IMG/VR virus record: IMGVR_UViG_3300030106_002189
Location: 1 to 30,456 of that record
DNA from: a virus
DNA: 30,456 nt
Direction: 5' to 3' (one strand)
Positions 20,244 through 30,456 of the stretch are shown piece after piece. A model generated the notes under the pieces. The model was not told the DNA's origin. It was given only the letters and a program-made list of their open reading frames with translations, and did not search any database. The position numbers and the translations under genes are program-made. Each line of letters begins with the position of its first letter. Position 1 is the first letter of the stretch.

Positions 20244-20423
20244 ATGAAACCATACTGGAAAGTAATACCAGGTTCAATTGAACAGGAAATGCAACATAAA
20301 AAAATTATAGAATTACATTCTAAAGGTTACTCAACTAGACAAATTGCAAACTTTGATTATATTTTATATAGCAAATCCTACATAAATAAATTTATTAATA
20401 ACCAAAAAAACAAACAAAAATGA
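20244..20423 (+). CDS. Small helix-turn-helix protein
   Basis: ATG at 20244 gives 59 residues. The central part (KKIIELHSKGYSTRQIANF ... SKSYINKFI) reads like a resolvase/homeodomain-type HTH: helix, 'KGYSTRQIA' second helix and a recognition helix. The stop overlaps the SSB-like gene start (ATGA). A transcription regulator or replication accessory is plausible. The gene at 20790 has a related HTH pattern. Confidence 0.55.
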   Translation: MKPYWKVIPGSIEQEMQHKKIIELHSKGYSTRQIANFDYILYSKSYINKFINNQKNKQK

Positions 20424-20761
20424 GTGAACAATTAAAATTAACTGGCACTATTACAAAAGTGTTAGAAGTAGAACAAGGAACTAGCAAAGCTGGTAAAGAA
20501 TGGAAAAAACAAAGTTTTGTTATTGATACAGGCGATCAATATAATCCTGAAGTTTGTTTTCAACTATTTGGTGAAGATAAAATTCAAATGTTAAACGGTA
20601 TTAACACGGGCGACAAAATAGAAGTTTTGTTTAATTTGTCTTCTAGAGAATACAACGGGCGTTATTTTCACAACGTTGACGCTTGGAAAATTAACAAAAC
20701 TGAAGCACAAGAACCCACACCAGTAAACGCAGACGAAAGCGAAGACGATTTACCGTTTTGA
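20420..20761 (+). CDS. DUF3127-like OB-fold protein, SSB-like
   Basis: This 113-residue protein has an OB-fold pattern (LTGTITKVLEVEQGTSKAG, KKQSFVIDTGDQYNPEVCF, GDKIEVLFNLSSREYNGRYF) and ends in an acidic tail DESEDDLPF. The acidic tip with D-D-x-P-F is the hallmark of single-stranded DNA-binding proteins, used to recruit partners. The core resembles DUF3127, a family found in Bacteroidota and their phages. It probably coats ssDNA during replication. It lies close upstream of nuclease, initiator and helicase genes. Confidence 0.8.
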   Translation: MSEQLKLTGTITKVLEVEQGTSKAGKEWKKQSFVIDTGDQYNPEVCFQLFGEDKIQMLNGINTGDKIEVLFNLSSREYNGRYFHNVDAWKINKTEAQEPTPVNADESEDDLPF

Positions 20762-21604: not shown

Positions 21605-22051
21605 ATGAGCAAAGAACTACCGTATTTAAAATTTTTTCCAGAACAATGGCTTTCAGGCGACATTAATTACTTACCATTTGAATTACAGGGGGCGTTTACG
21701 ACTTGTATGGCTCACTATTGGGCGAACAATTGTAAAATGTGTTACAATAAATTATTAATGCGTTTAAAAGACGAAAAAATACTAAAACAATTAATAGAAA
21801 ATGGATTAATTGAAACAAACAAAAACAATATTAATATTAAATTTTTAGACGAACAATATAAGGAATTTATAGAATTACACGAAAAAAGGGTTAAAAATGG
21901 TCGTAAAGGCGGAAGCCAAACCCAAGCCAAGCTTAAGGGGGGCTTAAGCAACACTAAAGCATTAAGAAAAGATAAAATAAAAAAAGATAAATACGACAAC
22001 GATAATCTTTTGAAAGTAAGTGATGACGTTAAAAAACTACTTTCGAAATGA
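21605..22051 (+). CDS. Replisome organizer / replication initiator-like protein
   Basis: This 148-residue protein starts KELPYLKFFPEQWLSGDINYL and continues FELQGAFTTCMAHYW. This is the DUF1376-like winged-helix pattern seen in phage replication initiation proteins ('y.kfy..dWl.d...Ls...rgay..ll'). A second helical part (LDEQYKEFIELHEKRVKN) leads to the basic GRKGGSQTQAKLKGG linker and a charged C-terminus. The ATPase gene follows with an ATGA-type overlap, the standard organizer-helicase pair. An iteron array with 11-bp period (21931-21972) lies inside this gene, as the lambda origin does in gene O. Specific origin binding is inferred. Confidence 0.65.
   Translation: MSKELPYLKFFPEQWLSGDINYLPFELQGAFTTCMAHYWANNCKMCYNKLLMRLKDEKILKQLIENGLIETNKNNINIKFLDEQYKEFIELHEKRVKNGRKGGSQTQAKLKGGLSNTKALRKDKIKKDKYDNDNLLKVSDDVKKLLSK
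21931..21972 (+). repeat. Iteron array A, candidate replication origin inside initiator gene
   Basis: GCTTAAG occurs at 21931-21937 and 21942-21948, exactly 11 bases apart. A degenerate third unit, ACTAAAGCATT (21953-21963), follows and runs into AAGAAAAGA (21964-21972). The 19 bases 21954-21972 (CTAAAGCATTAAGAAAAGA) recur exactly at 29031-29049, again next to GCTTAAG units with 11-base period. The + strand side is an A-rich tract (to about 21997) that could unwind easily. One helical-turn spacing suggests repeated protein binding on one face. Confidence 0.65.
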
Positions 22052-22905
22052 TTTTAGACGATAAACAAACTTTAAAATACTTACACGCTTATAAAGACGG
22101 TAGAATTAAACAAGGGTTGGGAGTTGGTTTGCCAATGTTAGACAAACACCTAGTTTTAAAAAAAGCTCAATTTGTAATGTGTCTAGGGTTGGACAATTGC
22201 GGTAAAACGTTTTGGTTGCTTTGGTATTTACTTTGTCAGGCAAAACTAAACAACAAAAAATTTATTATTTGGAGCGGTGAAAATAGAGCTGGTCAACTTA
22301 AAAGGGATATTATACAAATGTGGTTAGGTGTTAAATTTAAAGACATTATAAAAAGCAAAATTGACTTTTACAACCAAGAAATAAGTAAATACTTTAAGTT
22401 TTTAGATAACTCTAAAATGTACACCGTTAACGAATTATTAAATATTTTTGCAGACGCAGAAGTAGACGGGTGTGTAATAGATCCCTTTACTGGATTAAAC
22501 CACCCAAGAAACACACCTATTTTTGAACGTAATTATATTTTCTGTAATTTAGTTAGGGAGTTCTGTAATAAAACGGGTAAGAGTGTTTACGTTTGTATGC
22601 ACCCGCAGACCGAAGCAGCTAGGAGGGTTTACCCCGCAGACCATATTTTAAACGGACATATACAACCACCACGAAAAGCAGACTGTGAAGGGGGGCAAGT
22701 GTTCCCTAATAGGGTAGACGACTTTATATGTATTCACAGATTAATATCGCACCCAGATTTGTGGATGATGACAGAACTACACGTTTACAAAGTTAAAGAC
22801 AAAGAAACTGGAGGAAGCCCCACAATGCTAGGCGATCCGTTAAGGTTTGATTATAACAACGGTCTAGGCTTTACTCTAGGAGGTGTTAACCCTTTAAATA
22901 TATAG
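22048..22905 (+). CDS. RecA/DnaB-type ATPase, probable replicative helicase
   Basis: This 285-residue protein has a Walker A motif GLDNCGKT (47-54) after the strand QFVMCL, a second strand FIIWSGEN (DnaB motif H1a-like 'SGE') and a Walker B strand GCVIDPF at about 141-147. Near the end come CEGGQVFPNRVDDFICIHR and VYKVKDKETGG, which correspond to the DnaB H3/H4 region and arginine-finger area. It lacks the DnaB N-terminal domain and is close to a bare RecA-core length. It overlaps the organizer-like gene by 4 bases, as expected for an initiator-helicase pair. It would unwind DNA at the fork. Confidence 0.75.
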   Translation: MILDDKQTLKYLHAYKDGRIKQGLGVGLPMLDKHLVLKKAQFVMCLGLDNCGKTFWLLWYLLCQAKLNNKKFIIWSGENRAGQLKRDIIQMWLGVKFKDIIKSKIDFYNQEISKYFKFLDNSKMYTVNELLNIFADAEVDGCVIDPFTGLNHPRNTPIFERNYIFCNLVREFCNKTGKSVYVCMHPQTEAARRVYPADHILNGHIQPPRKADCEGGQVFPNRVDDFICIHRLISHPDLWMMTELHVYKVKDKETGGSPTMLGDPLRFDYNNGLGFTLGGVNPLNI

Positions 22906-24593: not shown

Positions 24594-24938
24594 ATGAATG
24601 CAAATAAAAAAGGAAAACGTTTTGAATTGCAAGTAGCAAAGTATTTAAGTAATATGTTCAATGAGGATATAAAAAGAACACCAAATTCAGGCGGGCTTAG
24701 TCTAAAAGGGGATATTATGGCAACTCAAGGAATACTAAGTGAATTTAACTGGGAGTGTAAGAACCAAGAAAAACTTAATATTTGGAAGGCTCTTGAGCAG
24801 TCAGCTAATGATTGCATAGGCTCACATAAACAACCATTAGTAGTTTTTACAAAGAACTTTGAAAAAGATTATTGTGCTTTAAGGTTAGAAGATTTTGTAC
24901 AATTATTATTAGAATTAAAACAGTTAAGGAATGAATGA
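24594..24938 (+). CDS. PD-(D/E)XK nuclease, Holliday-junction-resolvase-like
   Basis: This 114-residue protein has the Hjc-like order: NKKGKRFELQVAKYLS with Glu11, KRTPNSGGLSLKGDI with Asp40, and FNWECKNQE with Glu54-x-Lys56. A helix (WKALEQSANDCI) and a strand (PLVVFTKNF) follow. The size and spacing match small archaeal-type resolvases and phage PDDEXK enzymes, which cut branched DNA before packaging or during recombination. The start follows the shared AAAAGAAG leader. It overlaps the next gene by 8 bases. Confidence 0.7.
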   Translation: MNANKKGKRFELQVAKYLSNMFNEDIKRTPNSGGLSLKGDIMATQGILSEFNWECKNQEKLNIWKALEQSANDCIGSHKQPLVVFTKNFEKDYCALRLEDFVQLLLELKQLRNE

Positions 24939-27173: not shown

Positions 27174-27600
27174 CTGTGGGAATGGTTCTGAAGCTTATAG
27201 AAGGGCTTACAATGTAAAGCCAACAACGTCAAACGATGTTATTAAAGTTAGTGCAAATGAGTTACTAAGAAACCCTAACATATCCCTAACAATTGACAAA
27301 TTAAGAAAACAACAGGCGGACAAGTTCGAAATAAGCCGCTCAGACGTTGCTAAGGGCTATTTAGAGATAATAAACGCGTGGCGTAGTCTAATGGTACTAG
27401 CTTCAAAAGAAAAGCTCTCTAAGGACGAAAAACAGAAGTTTTATTTATTAAAGGAAATGGTTAAGGGTTCGGACTATCGAGGGGCGTTTGATAGCCTAGC
27501 GAAGATGTTCGGACTAAACGAACCAGACAAAACACAAATAGACCAAACGGTCAAAGAAATCCAAGTAGTAATTAATCGTGGAAGTAACGGAGATATTTGA
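27109..27600 (+). CDS. terS: Terminase small subunit
   Basis: This 163-residue protein has the Terminase_2-like pattern KLTPKQRRFAEEYVDCGNGS, EAYRRAYNVKP, VIKVSANELLRNPNI (an N-terminal HTH region for DNA recognition), then a helical oligomerisation part (SRSDVAKGYLEIINAWRSL) and a C-terminal tail. The only usable start is TTG at 27109, since the frame has a TAA at 27106-27108. It recognises the viral DNA end or pac site and loads the large subunit. It overlaps the terL start by 23 bases, the usual coupled arrangement. Confidence 0.85.
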   Translation: MKELPDIKLTPKQRRFAEEYVDCGNGSEAYRRAYNVKPTTSNDVIKVSANELLRNPNISLTIDKLRKQQADKFEISRSDVAKGYLEIINAWRSLMVLASKEKLSKDEKQKFYLLKEMVKGSDYRGAFDSLAKMFGLNEPDKTQIDQTVKEIQVVINRGSNGDI

Positions 27601-28759
27601 TAAAAATTATTTTAGTGAAGCCAAAATAGTAGTAAACAGAGGGGGTACTAGGTCTAGTAAAACCTATTCTTTAAACCAAATTTGTGCGTTATGGTTAATT
27701 AGTGGAATGTATGGCGAAAACCTTTATTTATCTGAAGGTATTTGGACTTCTGTCCGTAAGTATAGAACCAACCTAGACGGAACAATAATAAGGGATTTTG
27801 AGGAAATACTAAAACAAAACGGTTACTACAATATGGTTGACCATAACAAAACCAAAAAAACGTATAAATTCAAAAAGCGAATGGTTGAGTTTATAGGAGC
27901 AGACGATCAACAGAAGCTAAGGGGAGCAAAACGAAACATTCTATACTGTAACGAGGCTAACGAATTGGAATATAAAAAGGAGTTTTTTCAATTGTTAATG
28001 CGTACTGAAAACAAAATATTTTTAGACTTCAACCCAGATGACGAACAAGTGTGGATTAATCAGGAACTAGAAATAAAACGTTCTGCGGAAGTTGGTGACG
28101 TTGAGGTAATTGTCAGTAATTACAAAAATAATTCCTACCTACCCAAAAGCTTAATTAAAGAAATTGAATACCTACAACAAACCGATAAAGAGTTCTGGAA
28201 AATATATGGGTTAGGTGAATACGGTAATATAAGCGGTTTAATTTACGAAAACGTGGAGTATGTCGAAACAATGCCTGAATGTGATTTAGTATCGTATGGC
28301 TTAGACTGGGGATATAGTTTAGATCCAACCGCCTGTGTTGGTGTTTATAAACGTGGTGAAGAATTGTATTTAAAAGAAATACTTTACGAAAAAGGACTTA
28401 CCAACCAAGACATAGCGGAACGTCTAAAGCCTATTGTTGGAAGGGAAGAAATAATCTGCGATAGTGCCGAACCAAAGTCAATAGAAGAATTGTATCGTTT
28501 AGGTTTAAACGTTAAACCAGCTACTAAAGGCAAGGACAGTATCAACAACGGAATAGACATTTTAAAACGTTATAAAATAAAGGTTGTTAACGGTTCTAAT
28601 TTGCGTAAAGAGTTTAGGTCTTATAAATGGGCAACGGACAAAAATGGTAATTCATTAAACAAACCAATTGACAAATTTAACCACCTATTAGACGCATTAA
28701 GATACGTTGCATTAATACACCTTAAAAAACATAATAGGGGTTGGTATGCAATACGTTAA
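27578..28759 (+). CDS. terL: Terminase large subunit
   Basis: This 393-residue protein has the ATPase motif RGGTRSSKTYS (Walker A variant, 22-29) with an adenine-binding-like region just before it, and a Walker B-like strand ILYCNEA (121-127, catalytic Glu126). The C-terminal nuclease has three acidic positions in GLDWGYS (about 243), ICDSAEP (about 294) and FNHLLDALRY (about 371). This is the PBSX/XtmB-like type of packaging motor, which cuts concatemers and pumps DNA into the prohead through the portal. Length is near the short end for the family (about 400-550). It converges with a minus-strand gene with one base between the stops. Confidence 0.9.
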   Translation: MEVTEIFDKNYFSEAKIVVNRGGTRSSKTYSLNQICALWLISGMYGENLYLSEGIWTSVRKYRTNLDGTIIRDFEEILKQNGYYNMVDHNKTKKTYKFKKRMVEFIGADDQQKLRGAKRNILYCNEANELEYKKEFFQLLMRTENKIFLDFNPDDEQVWINQELEIKRSAEVGDVEVIVSNYKNNSYLPKSLIKEIEYLQQTDKEFWKIYGLGEYGNISGLIYENVEYVETMPECDLVSYGLDWGYSLDPTACVGVYKRGEELYLKEILYEKGLTNQDIAERLKPIVGREEIICDSAEPKSIEELYRLGLNVKPATKGKDSINNGIDILKRYKIKVVNGSNLRKEFRSYKWATDKNGNSLNKPIDKFNHLLDALRYVALIHLKKHNRGWYAIR

Positions 28760-28760
28760 A

Positions 28761-28931
28761 TTATCTTTTTTCTGCTTTCCAAAATTCGCCATTCTTATAA
28801 TAAATTTTAGCCATTATTCGATATTTGTTCCAAAGTTTTTTACTGATTGGCAAAATATGGTTTTCGTCAAATATTCTTGACATTTTGGACTCTGTATTTA
28901 CTAATTCAATTTGTTTTTTTGTTAACTTCAT
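28761..28931 (-). CDS. Only minus-strand gene: small basic protein, unknown
   Basis: Reading the minus strand from ATG at 28931 gives 56 residues (MKLTKKQIELVNTESKMSRI, then FDENHILPISKKLWNKYRI and YYKNGEFWKAEKR), with TAA at 28763-28761. The protein is basic and helical with aromatic residues and no membrane segment. All other genes are on the plus strand. Its promoter region contains the iteron array B (28975-29049), so it may be controlled by, or control, whatever binds there. It could be a DNA-binding regulator, but no family is recognised. Confidence 0.6.
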   Translation of the reverse strand: MKLTKKQIELVNTESKMSRIFDENHILPISKKLWNKYRIMAKIYYKNGEFWKAEKR

Positions 28932-28974: not shown

Positions 28975-29049
28975 GCTTAAGTATGGCTTAAGTACTGCTT
29001 AAGTGTTGCTTAAGTACTGCTAACATTTTGCTAAAGCATTAAGAAAAGA
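28975..29049 (+). repeat. Iteron array B, second candidate origin or operator
   Basis: Six 11-base units in tandem: GCTTAAGTATG (28975), GCTTAAGTACT (28986), GCTTAAGTGTT (28997), GCTTAAGTACT (29008), then degenerate GCTAACATTTT (29019) and GCTAAAGCATT (29030). AAGAAAAGA follows. The end (29031-29049) is identical to 21954-21972 in array A. It lies in a 202-base region between the minus-strand gene and the tail chaperone gene. A-rich and AT-rich sequence follows on the plus-strand side. Iteron, operator and packaging-signal roles are all possible. Confidence 0.75.
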
Positions 29050-29068
29050 AAAGAAAAGAAAAGAAAAG
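29041..29068 (+). repeat. AAAAG microsatellite
   Basis: AAG followed by five AAAAG units, purine-only on the plus strand, directly after iteron array B. Such purine tracts are flexible or easily unwound and could belong to an origin; they are also prone to length variation. The sequence from here to 29133 is AT-rich without a gene. Confidence 0.85.
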
Positions 29069-29133
29069 ATATATAAGAAAAAAAATATTTTTGTTAAACG
29101 TGTTATTATTGAAAAATTTTATATATATAGACT

Positions 29134-29769
29134 ATGGAGCTTAAAATACCTACCAGCTGGGAAGACATAACATTAGGACAATACATTGAACTAAGACCAA
29201 TACTACAAACTAAACAAGACGATATTAAAAGGGTAATTAATATTCTTTGTGTTTTAACGGGTAAAAAAAGGGAAGAAATTAGAAACGTAACAATACCAGA
29301 CTTTCACAAATTAGTTAAAAAGATGTCGTTTCTAAATGATCCCTTACCTAAACAACTAAATAAAAGAAGGTTTTTAATTGGAGGTAAATGGTACGAGTTT
29401 AAGTTAGACGCTAAAAAAATGTTGTTTGGAGAGTATATTAGCGTTATGGAAATACTGCAAAAGTCAGGAGATAACGAAGACTTATTATTTAATAACCTAC
29501 ATAAAATATTAACGGTTATTTGCAGACCAGTATATAAAACGTTATTCGGTTTTAAAAGTGTTGACATAGACGGGGATTTAATACGGGAAACGGCTAACAA
29601 CTTTTATAACAATATGCCAATAACAATAGCTTACCCGATAGGTGTTTTTTTTTATCAACGCTATCCAACCTTAACGGAAACTATAAAAACTTCTTTGATG
29701 GAGGAAGCCGAAAAGAAGATAAAGGAAGTAAAAACAGATTTACAGAAAGCTGGGGCTGGTGGAGTTTAA
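29134..29769 (+). CDS. Tail assembly chaperone (short form)
   Basis: This 211-residue protein starts ELKIPTSWEDITLGQYIEL and continues with DIKRVINILCVLTGKKREEI, LIGGKWYEFKLDAKKM, FGEYISVMEILQKSG and a C-terminal AYPIGVFFYQRYP. This pattern resembles the tail assembly chaperone (gpG-like) of Bacteroidota siphophages. Such proteins wrap the tape measure during tail assembly and are made in two forms by a ribosomal frameshift. A slippery run at 29646-29652 and an open -1 frame to 29924 follow (next entries). It is the first gene after the iteron region. The chaperone identity rests on pattern plus the frameshift arrangement. Confidence 0.7.
   Translation: MELKIPTSWEDITLGQYIELRPILQTKQDDIKRVINILCVLTGKKREEIRNVTIPDFHKLVKKMSFLNDPLPKQLNKRRFLIGGKWYEFKLDAKKMLFGEYISVMEILQKSGDNEDLLFNNLHKILTVICRPVYKTLFGFKSVDIDGDLIRETANNFYNNMPITIAYPIGVFFYQRYPTLTETIKTSLMEEAEKKIKEVKTDLQKAGAGGV
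29646..29652 (+). other. Slippery heptamer T-TTT-TTT for -1 frameshift
   Basis: In the chaperone frame the codons are GGT GTT TTT TTT TAT (29641-29655), a run of nine T. The heptamer T TTT TTT (29646-29652) is an X-XXY-YYZ site, on which both tRNAs can re-pair after slipping back one base. The -1 frame is open from 29610 to 29924, well past the zero-frame stop at 29767-29769. I did not find a clear downstream pseudoknot by eye. Confidence 0.7.
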
Positions 29770-29924: not shown

Positions 29925-30456
29925 ATGGCGGACAATAGCACATACAACGAATTAGTAGGTTTTACAACTGGCACACCTTCGGGAATAGTAGACAACCCCC
30001 GAAATATTGGCGATGTAATGAATAACCTAGCTATTCGGGTTATAGCTGAAACACAAAGGCAACTAGATGAAAACGCTAGTAAAGGAACTAGGGGGGATTT
30101 ACGGCAGTCAATAGAAATGCCTGTTAAGATATTCGGGACTTCGTTTGTTGCTACGCTATCTATGTTAGATTACTACGATTATATAAACAAAGGGGTTAAA
30201 GGAAAAGAAAGTAGCGAGAAAGCTCCCAATAGCCCTTACAAATATACAACGCTAAAACCACCCGTTAAAGCGTTAAAGGAATGGAGTTATTTTAAAGGGC
30301 TTAATCCGTTTGCAGTTCGTGAAAGTATATTTAAAAAAGGTATTAAGGCTAACAGGTTTTGGGATAAAGCATACAAAGAAATATCAACGGGTAAGATATT
30401 TAAACAACTAGAAAAAGATTTAAGAACTGCGGGGGTTAACGCAACTACTGAAGGTG
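29925..30456 (+). CDS. Connector/tail-completion-like protein, N-terminal part (continues at 1-126)
   Basis: ATG at 29925 directly follows the frameshift product's stop. The frame runs off the end and continues at base 1; the joined protein has 185 residues. Features: a helix DVMNNLAIRVIAETQRQLDE, the pattern TRGDLRQSIEMPVKIFGTSF (common in HK97 gp10-like neck and tail-completion proteins, 'G.L..SI'), then MLDYYDYINKGVKG, SPYKYTTLKPP and a basic helical C-terminus. That suggests a role at the tail-head joint or tail end, though the location beside the chaperone is also compatible with a tail protein. The last two bases of the window differ from the repeat and may be assembly noise. Confidence 0.65.
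   Translation, partial: MADNSTYNELVGFTTGTPSGIVDNPRNIGDVMNNLAIRVIAETQRQLDENASKGTRGDLRQSIEMPVKIFGTSFVATLSMLDYYDYINKGVKGKESSEKAPNSPYKYTTLKPPVKALKEWSYFKGLNPFAVRESIFKKGIKANRFWDKAYKEISTGKIFKQLEKDLRTAGVNATTEG
30357..30454. repeat. Terminal direct repeat, right copy
   Basis: Identical to bases 1-98. Removing one copy and the final two bases leaves a circle of about 30,356 bp with every gene intact. Confidence 0.9.

Follow-up and report, generated by a model that had tools for sequence, protein, structure and literature searches.

A putative second iteron-type replication origin behind the large terminase gene of an uncultured phage and its relatives

Results and discussion

The window, that is the whole stretch of DNA analysed here (30,456 nucleotides, positions 1 to 30,456 of the IMG/VR virus record IMGVR_UViG_3300030106_002189), carries two arrays of direct repeats with an 11-bp period, one (array A) inside a putative replication initiator gene and the other (array B) behind the gene of the terminase large subunit (terL). 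We consider it likely that array B serves the phage's own initiator as an origin of the iteron type, and that it is a second copy of a site whose ancestral place is the linker region of the initiator gene, where array A is found. A second or main origin was one of several possibilities listed for array B in the initial annotation, and it is well supported by sequence comparison, since the element is family-wide, is conserved behind terL and covaries with array A. The features on which this reading is built are collected in Table 1. About 100 bp at one end of the genome recur at the other (1-98 is the same as 30357-30454), and the genome is therefore probably a circle of about 30.36 kb.

Table 1. 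Positions of the two arrays and of the neighbouring genes in the window
Feature	Position	Strand	Remarks
Single-strand DNA-binding protein (SSB)	20420..20761	+	DUF3127/phrog_4932; a few genes upstream of the initiator
Replication initiator, putative binder of arrays A and B	21605..22051	+	148 aa; phrog_29280; winged helix and disordered linker
Array A	21931..21972	+	Perfect units at 21931 and 21942; degenerate unit at 21953; shared end
DnaB/primase-helicase-like RecA-fold ATPase	22048..22905	+	Adjoins the initiator gene
Holliday junction resolvase	24594..24938	+	phrog_244; protein type needed by the SPP1 theta-to-sigma switch model
Terminase large subunit (terL)	27578..28759	+	Flanks array B on its left side in all relatives
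56-aa ORF between terL and array B	28761..28931	-	Not present in L007 and L008, which are close relatives
Array B, four perfect GCTTAAG units	28975, 28986, 28997, 29008 (28975..29014)	+	11-bp period
Array B, two degenerate units, GCTAACA (29019) and GCTAAAG (29030)	29019..29036	+	Same 11-bp register
Shared end, 19 bases, CTAAAGCATTAAGAAAAGA	29031..29049	+	Identical to 21954-21972, the end of array A
Purine tract (AAGAA repeats), start of the putative unwinding element	29040..29071	+	By pyrimidine count
AT-rich DNA, putative DNA unwinding element	29049..29133	+	By duplex stability
Conserved gene right of array B	29134..29769	+	phrog_32199, unknown function

Anatomy of the two arrays

The initial annotation had described array B as four GCTTAAG units and two degenerate ones with an 11-bp period, closed by 19 bases shared with array A, and had placed it 44 bp from the minus-strand ORF (28931) and 85 bp from the gene at 29134; the coordinates bear out all of this. 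The 19-base core occurs exactly twice in the window genome. After the degenerate units of array B come CATTAAGAAAAGA, then AAAAG repeats and AT-rich DNA. Nowhere else in the genome does a 30-bp stretch have one pyrimidine or none on the plus strand, as the purine tract does here, and the best 60-bp window of the AT-rich DNA (at 29069) is among the least stable 0.1% genome-wide; the AT tract of array A is weaker and falls in the top 7% of 60-bp windows by instability. Array A has the same orientation as array B, lies 7 kb away from it and covers codons 109-123 of the initiator gene. The statement that the same iteron array is present twice thus holds for the units and for the shared end, but array A is shorter and is located inside a coding gene.

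Such an arrangement had been held unlikely by chance. Of 300 dinucleotide shuffles, none had even two GCTTAAG words in 11-bp register, where four are observed. As a single word GCTTAAG is not enriched (7 found against 4.1 expected), and the non-random feature is the 11-bp register, not the word count. In the same way, the longest repeat in shuffled sequence has a mean length of 16 and a maximum of 22, and the 19-base match is unremarkable by its length; what makes it informative is that both arrays end with it. The GC and AT skews do not change sign and give no polarity signal; being positive throughout the genome, they are uninformative as an origin marker. A search for hosts and prophages in bacterial genome contigs gave two weak matches to MAGs, which were not useful.

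The initiator gene and its array

The ORF that contains array A matches phrog_29280, an unannotated family, and weakly matches "primosomal protein" families; longer members of phrog_29280 match replisome-organizer, O-like, DnaD-like and Phg_2220_C profiles. The AlphaFold model of the window protein, which is of moderate confidence, has a winged helix at residues about 25-77 (pLDDT about 90) followed by a long helix, and residues 107-137, the part in which array A is encoded, are modelled with low confidence and are presumably disordered. Foldseek with this model returned generic winged-helix proteins only, none at E<0.001, a sequence search of the PDB gave no match to a solved initiator, and the window protein did not match the O profiles, which are matched by only a few long relatives. 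The initiator role is a putative one, based on family profiles and on position. The short members of the family (about 130-150 aa) are without the C-terminal domain found in the long ones.

Using 58 closely related genes of the L042-type clade, we compared synonymous diversity along the initiator gene and found 0.07 in the codons of array A versus 0.21 in the remaining gene (p=0.0007). This value ranks with the lowest of all windows, the lowest window of the gene being codons 101-114 (0.016). Synonymous variation is low in the array codons, and therefore the DNA, and not the protein alone, is under selection.

Distant homologues of the initiator were taken from the Cellulophaga phages phi19:1 and Nekkels_1, the Flavobacterium phage morran9-1 and the Leeuwenhoekiella phage Arctus_1; identity over the whole alignment is 28-33%. 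Each of the four has in its linker an array of 11-bp period, with a unit that differs from that of the window, followed by a purine-rich AAGAA/AAGAG tract. In 59 distinct viral initiator homologues the period is seen as peaks at lags 11 and 22. High values are found at lags 10 and 15 as well, and these we ascribe to the 5-bp AAGAA tract. An array in the linker with an AT/purine tract, which is the anatomy of a lambda-type origin, is on these comparisons a trait of the initiator family. No second array outside the initiator gene was found in phi19:1, Nekkels_1, morran9-1 or Arctus_1, nor any convincing one within 10 kb on the contigs with long initiators, and two sites are therefore not required across the family. 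In morran9-1 (L131:14708-14738) and Arctus_1 (L132:8553-8578) a further repeat stretch is present upstream in the same initiator gene.

Distribution of array B behind terL

Two findings had been named in advance as fatal to a functional array, namely units scattered at random over the genome and absence of the units from relatives that keep both flanking genes; the core was instead found exactly twice per genome, and the array is present in almost every relative that keeps both flanking genes. A scan by motif only (GCTTAAGN4GCTTAAG) over 2.9 million viral contigs, with at least 118 loci analysed, placed the array no more than 1.5 kb downstream of terL in at least 43 loci and inside the initiator gene in at least 7, neither gene being found in the locus in at least 67. 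All 52 array occurrences behind terL among the matches listed share one orientation. When contigs were chosen without the motif, by their initiator or terL, array B was present in 15 of 17 (13 by score and 2 by eye), and a selection equally free of the motif gave 119 of 125 distinct terL-to-next-gene intervals with array B (113 by the automatic pattern, 6 by eye); these are counts of distinct sequences, not of independent lineages, and many of the viral contigs are fragments. Six relatives keep both flanking genes and yet have no array B.

In each of ten near-complete phages, leaving aside duplicates near contig ends and one hit with two mismatches, the core is present at two true sites, one within the initiator gene and a second one behind terL. 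Both are on one strand, and the distance between them is mostly 4.5-7 kb. A reading of the units as scattered repeats was rejected, there being two sites per genome.

The 56-aa protein of the minus strand was also rejected as the binder of the array, as close relatives have the array without this protein; L007 and L008 have array B beside the same right-hand gene although this ORF is missing. The ORF has no family match above the cut-off, and relatives 98% identical in terL are without it. The interval between terL and array B is a cargo site, with apparent methyltransferase ORFs in some relatives.

This turnover of the flanking DNA, with a minus-strand ORF that the window has and L007 and L008 do not, and with varying cargo genes, would fit repeats that play no part in replication and are a hotspot of recombination or insertion, or else a small mobile element. 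We find it hardly credible that the repeats are of that kind, given their strict 11-bp period, the two sites per genome, the conservation of array A at the coding level and the clade-specific change of the unit in both copies that is described below.

An operator that links replication to late transcription had also been suggested, the initiator or a regulator bound at array B controlling transcription from 29134 onwards. The short distance between the array and this gene fits such a role, as does a promoter-like sequence between them that is conserved among relatives. In the relatives, however, the distance from the array to the next gene goes from about 60 bp to more than 1 kb, often with ORFs or terminator-like hairpins in between, the element is also found inside initiator genes, where no promoter is needed, and the conserved purine/AT tract belongs to the element. 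The suggestion is weakened by these comparisons and now seems highly improbable.

Covariation of the two sites and the binding protein

The unit behind terL changes with the clade. The clade of the window and the L042-type clade have CTTAAGC there, and the L150-type clade has GCAAATGCT, seen in 48 intervals; the rarer types are AGCATTACTA/CTACAGC (5 intervals) and one with GCGTT (2 intervals). In L396 both arrays are built of CTACAGC, and over 13 non-redundant A/B pairs each array matches its own partner better than the others (permutation p=0.0008, a value that ignores shared ancestry among the pairs). Within the genomes of the CTTAAG clade the fit of the A unit to the B unit is loose, and the spacers differ. 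That one shared protein would bind both arrays, as the initial annotation had proposed, is supported at the sequence level by this covariation and by the tie of the array to the initiator gene.

In the L150-type clade (L150, G005) no array is present in the initiator gene and array B is the sole one found. The unit of this B-only clade, AGCAAATGCT, is that of the intragenic array in L192, and L381, which is without array B, has an extended array A; the initiator-gene site and the site behind terL therefore look interchangeable.

The identity of the protein bears directly on the proposal of a packaging signal near terS/terL, according to which array B would be a pac or cos site bound by the small terminase. 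Array B does adjoin terL, and repeats are common in terminase-binding sites. The small terminase is a Terminase_2 protein in the window clade versus a DUF5681 protein in the L042 clade, with no similarity between the two; these clades nevertheless share the unit, and the initiator, 44% identical between them, is common to both. Conversely, the units GCAAATG, CTACAGC and CTTAAG all occur within a clade that has one kind of small terminase. A pac or cos site would be expected to change together with its small terminase, which is not the pattern seen here: the array unit follows the initiator and not the terminase. As array A is moreover located inside a replication gene, the packaging proposal is contradicted, and we regard it as extremely improbable.

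Proposed mechanism

The steps of binding, melting and firing, and the order in which the sites would be used, are our interpretation of the features read in the sequences above. The winged-helix initiator would bind the 11-bp repeats at A and at B, which, with one repeat per helical turn, would lie on one face of the DNA. Next, the duplex would open at the neighbouring purine/AT-rich tract (29040-29133), and the RecA-fold helicase encoded next door would be loaded at the opened site. Because array B exceeds array A in number of units and its duplex is less stable, it probably serves the window phage as the main origin, or at least as one of equal rank. It probably can fire, because one clade appears to live with B alone. 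By analogy with SPP1, initiator bound at the second site may in addition stall forks and so aid the switch from circle-to-circle replication to concatemers; the Holliday junction resolvase, and an SbcD-like exonuclease that the window also encodes, could serve such a switch.

Stalling could also be all that array B does, if the initiator bound there without firing and the array, as a barrier to forks or a site of titration, set off the theta-to-sigma (concatemer) switch, with array A as the sole origin. In SPP1 initiator-bound oriR has been proposed to block the fork and so bring about the switch (PMC6316719, PMC3485210), the resolvase and the exonuclease are at hand in the window, and A and B are always in the same orientation. 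We consider this rather unlikely, because B is the best origin candidate in L150 and G005, where the initiator gene is free of arrays and a further copy of B was not found in the genome, because array B retains an AT-rich tract of its own that a pure barrier does not need, and because L381, lacking B, has an extended array A.

Taking array B as an origin, the clades may record a lineage that is moving its origin, from the initiator gene (the ancestral state) to two origins, as in the window phage, and then to a place behind terL only, with an initiator gene that is free of repeats and shortened; to our mind this course of events is evenly balanced between true and false. The origin unit changes by clade at both sites, from which it would follow that initiator and origins co-evolve across separate loci.

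Comparison with known origins

A close parallel in arrangement is Bacillus phage SPP1, in which oriL is inside the initiator gene and oriR, a second copy, is in the moron-bearing late segment, both origins having direct repeats and an AT-rich unwinding element and sharing one initiator, gp38 (PMC6316719, PMC3485210). The window phage likewise has one site in the initiator gene and, outside it in the late region, a second set of repeats with its AT tract. It differs from SPP1 in that the sites of the window type are mostly 4.5-7 kb apart, and not 12-13 kb, with the second directly behind terL, in that its initiator (phrog_29280) is apparently of another family than gp38, and in that relatives with only one of the two sites exist.

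In lambda and the Stx phages the iterons are in the middle of gene O and are followed by an AT-rich tract (PMC7466680). The resemblance of array A to this origin lies in the iterons of helical period in the middle of the initiator gene, at the disordered linker, in the adjacent easily melted AT tract and in the helicase-function gene next door. Unlike lambda, the window phage has a second copy of the array outside the gene, and its initiator matches no O profile, so that homology with lambda O was not found. The iterons of lambda are longer than the 11-bp units described here.

Iteron plasmid origins of the RepE/RepA type have direct repeats spaced by about one to two helical turns, an AT-rich unwinding element and a winged-helix initiator. 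The window resembles them in its direct repeats beside an AT-rich element and in its putative winged-helix initiator; unlike them, it is a viral genome, no Rep-type initiator was matched, and the array is in the initiator gene or far from it.

In a literature search that covered few subscription papers, this type of origin was not found described in Bacteroidota phages. The analysis gives a likely function to the unannotated family phrog_29280, which could be annotated as a replication initiator, points to candidate origins in a large number of uncultured viral genomes and provides a second, apparently independent, case of the two-origin plan of SPP1. The natural series formed by these phages (array in the gene only, at both places, or behind terL only) allows the purpose of a second origin to be tested, and also how one initiator stays matched to two sites that lie apart and how an origin moves.

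A hairpin near terL in relatives

Relatives (L150:11842-11897 and L042:12727-12782) have a terminator-like hairpin that includes a T-run and whose 14-nt loop, TCGGCRAAAGAGCG, hardly varies. None occurs in the window, and the hairpin had no match in Rfam. The two sides of its stem change together, and 38 variants were found in the loci of relatives, mostly in the interval from terL to the next gene, which makes it possible that the hairpin is an undescribed structured element of these phages.
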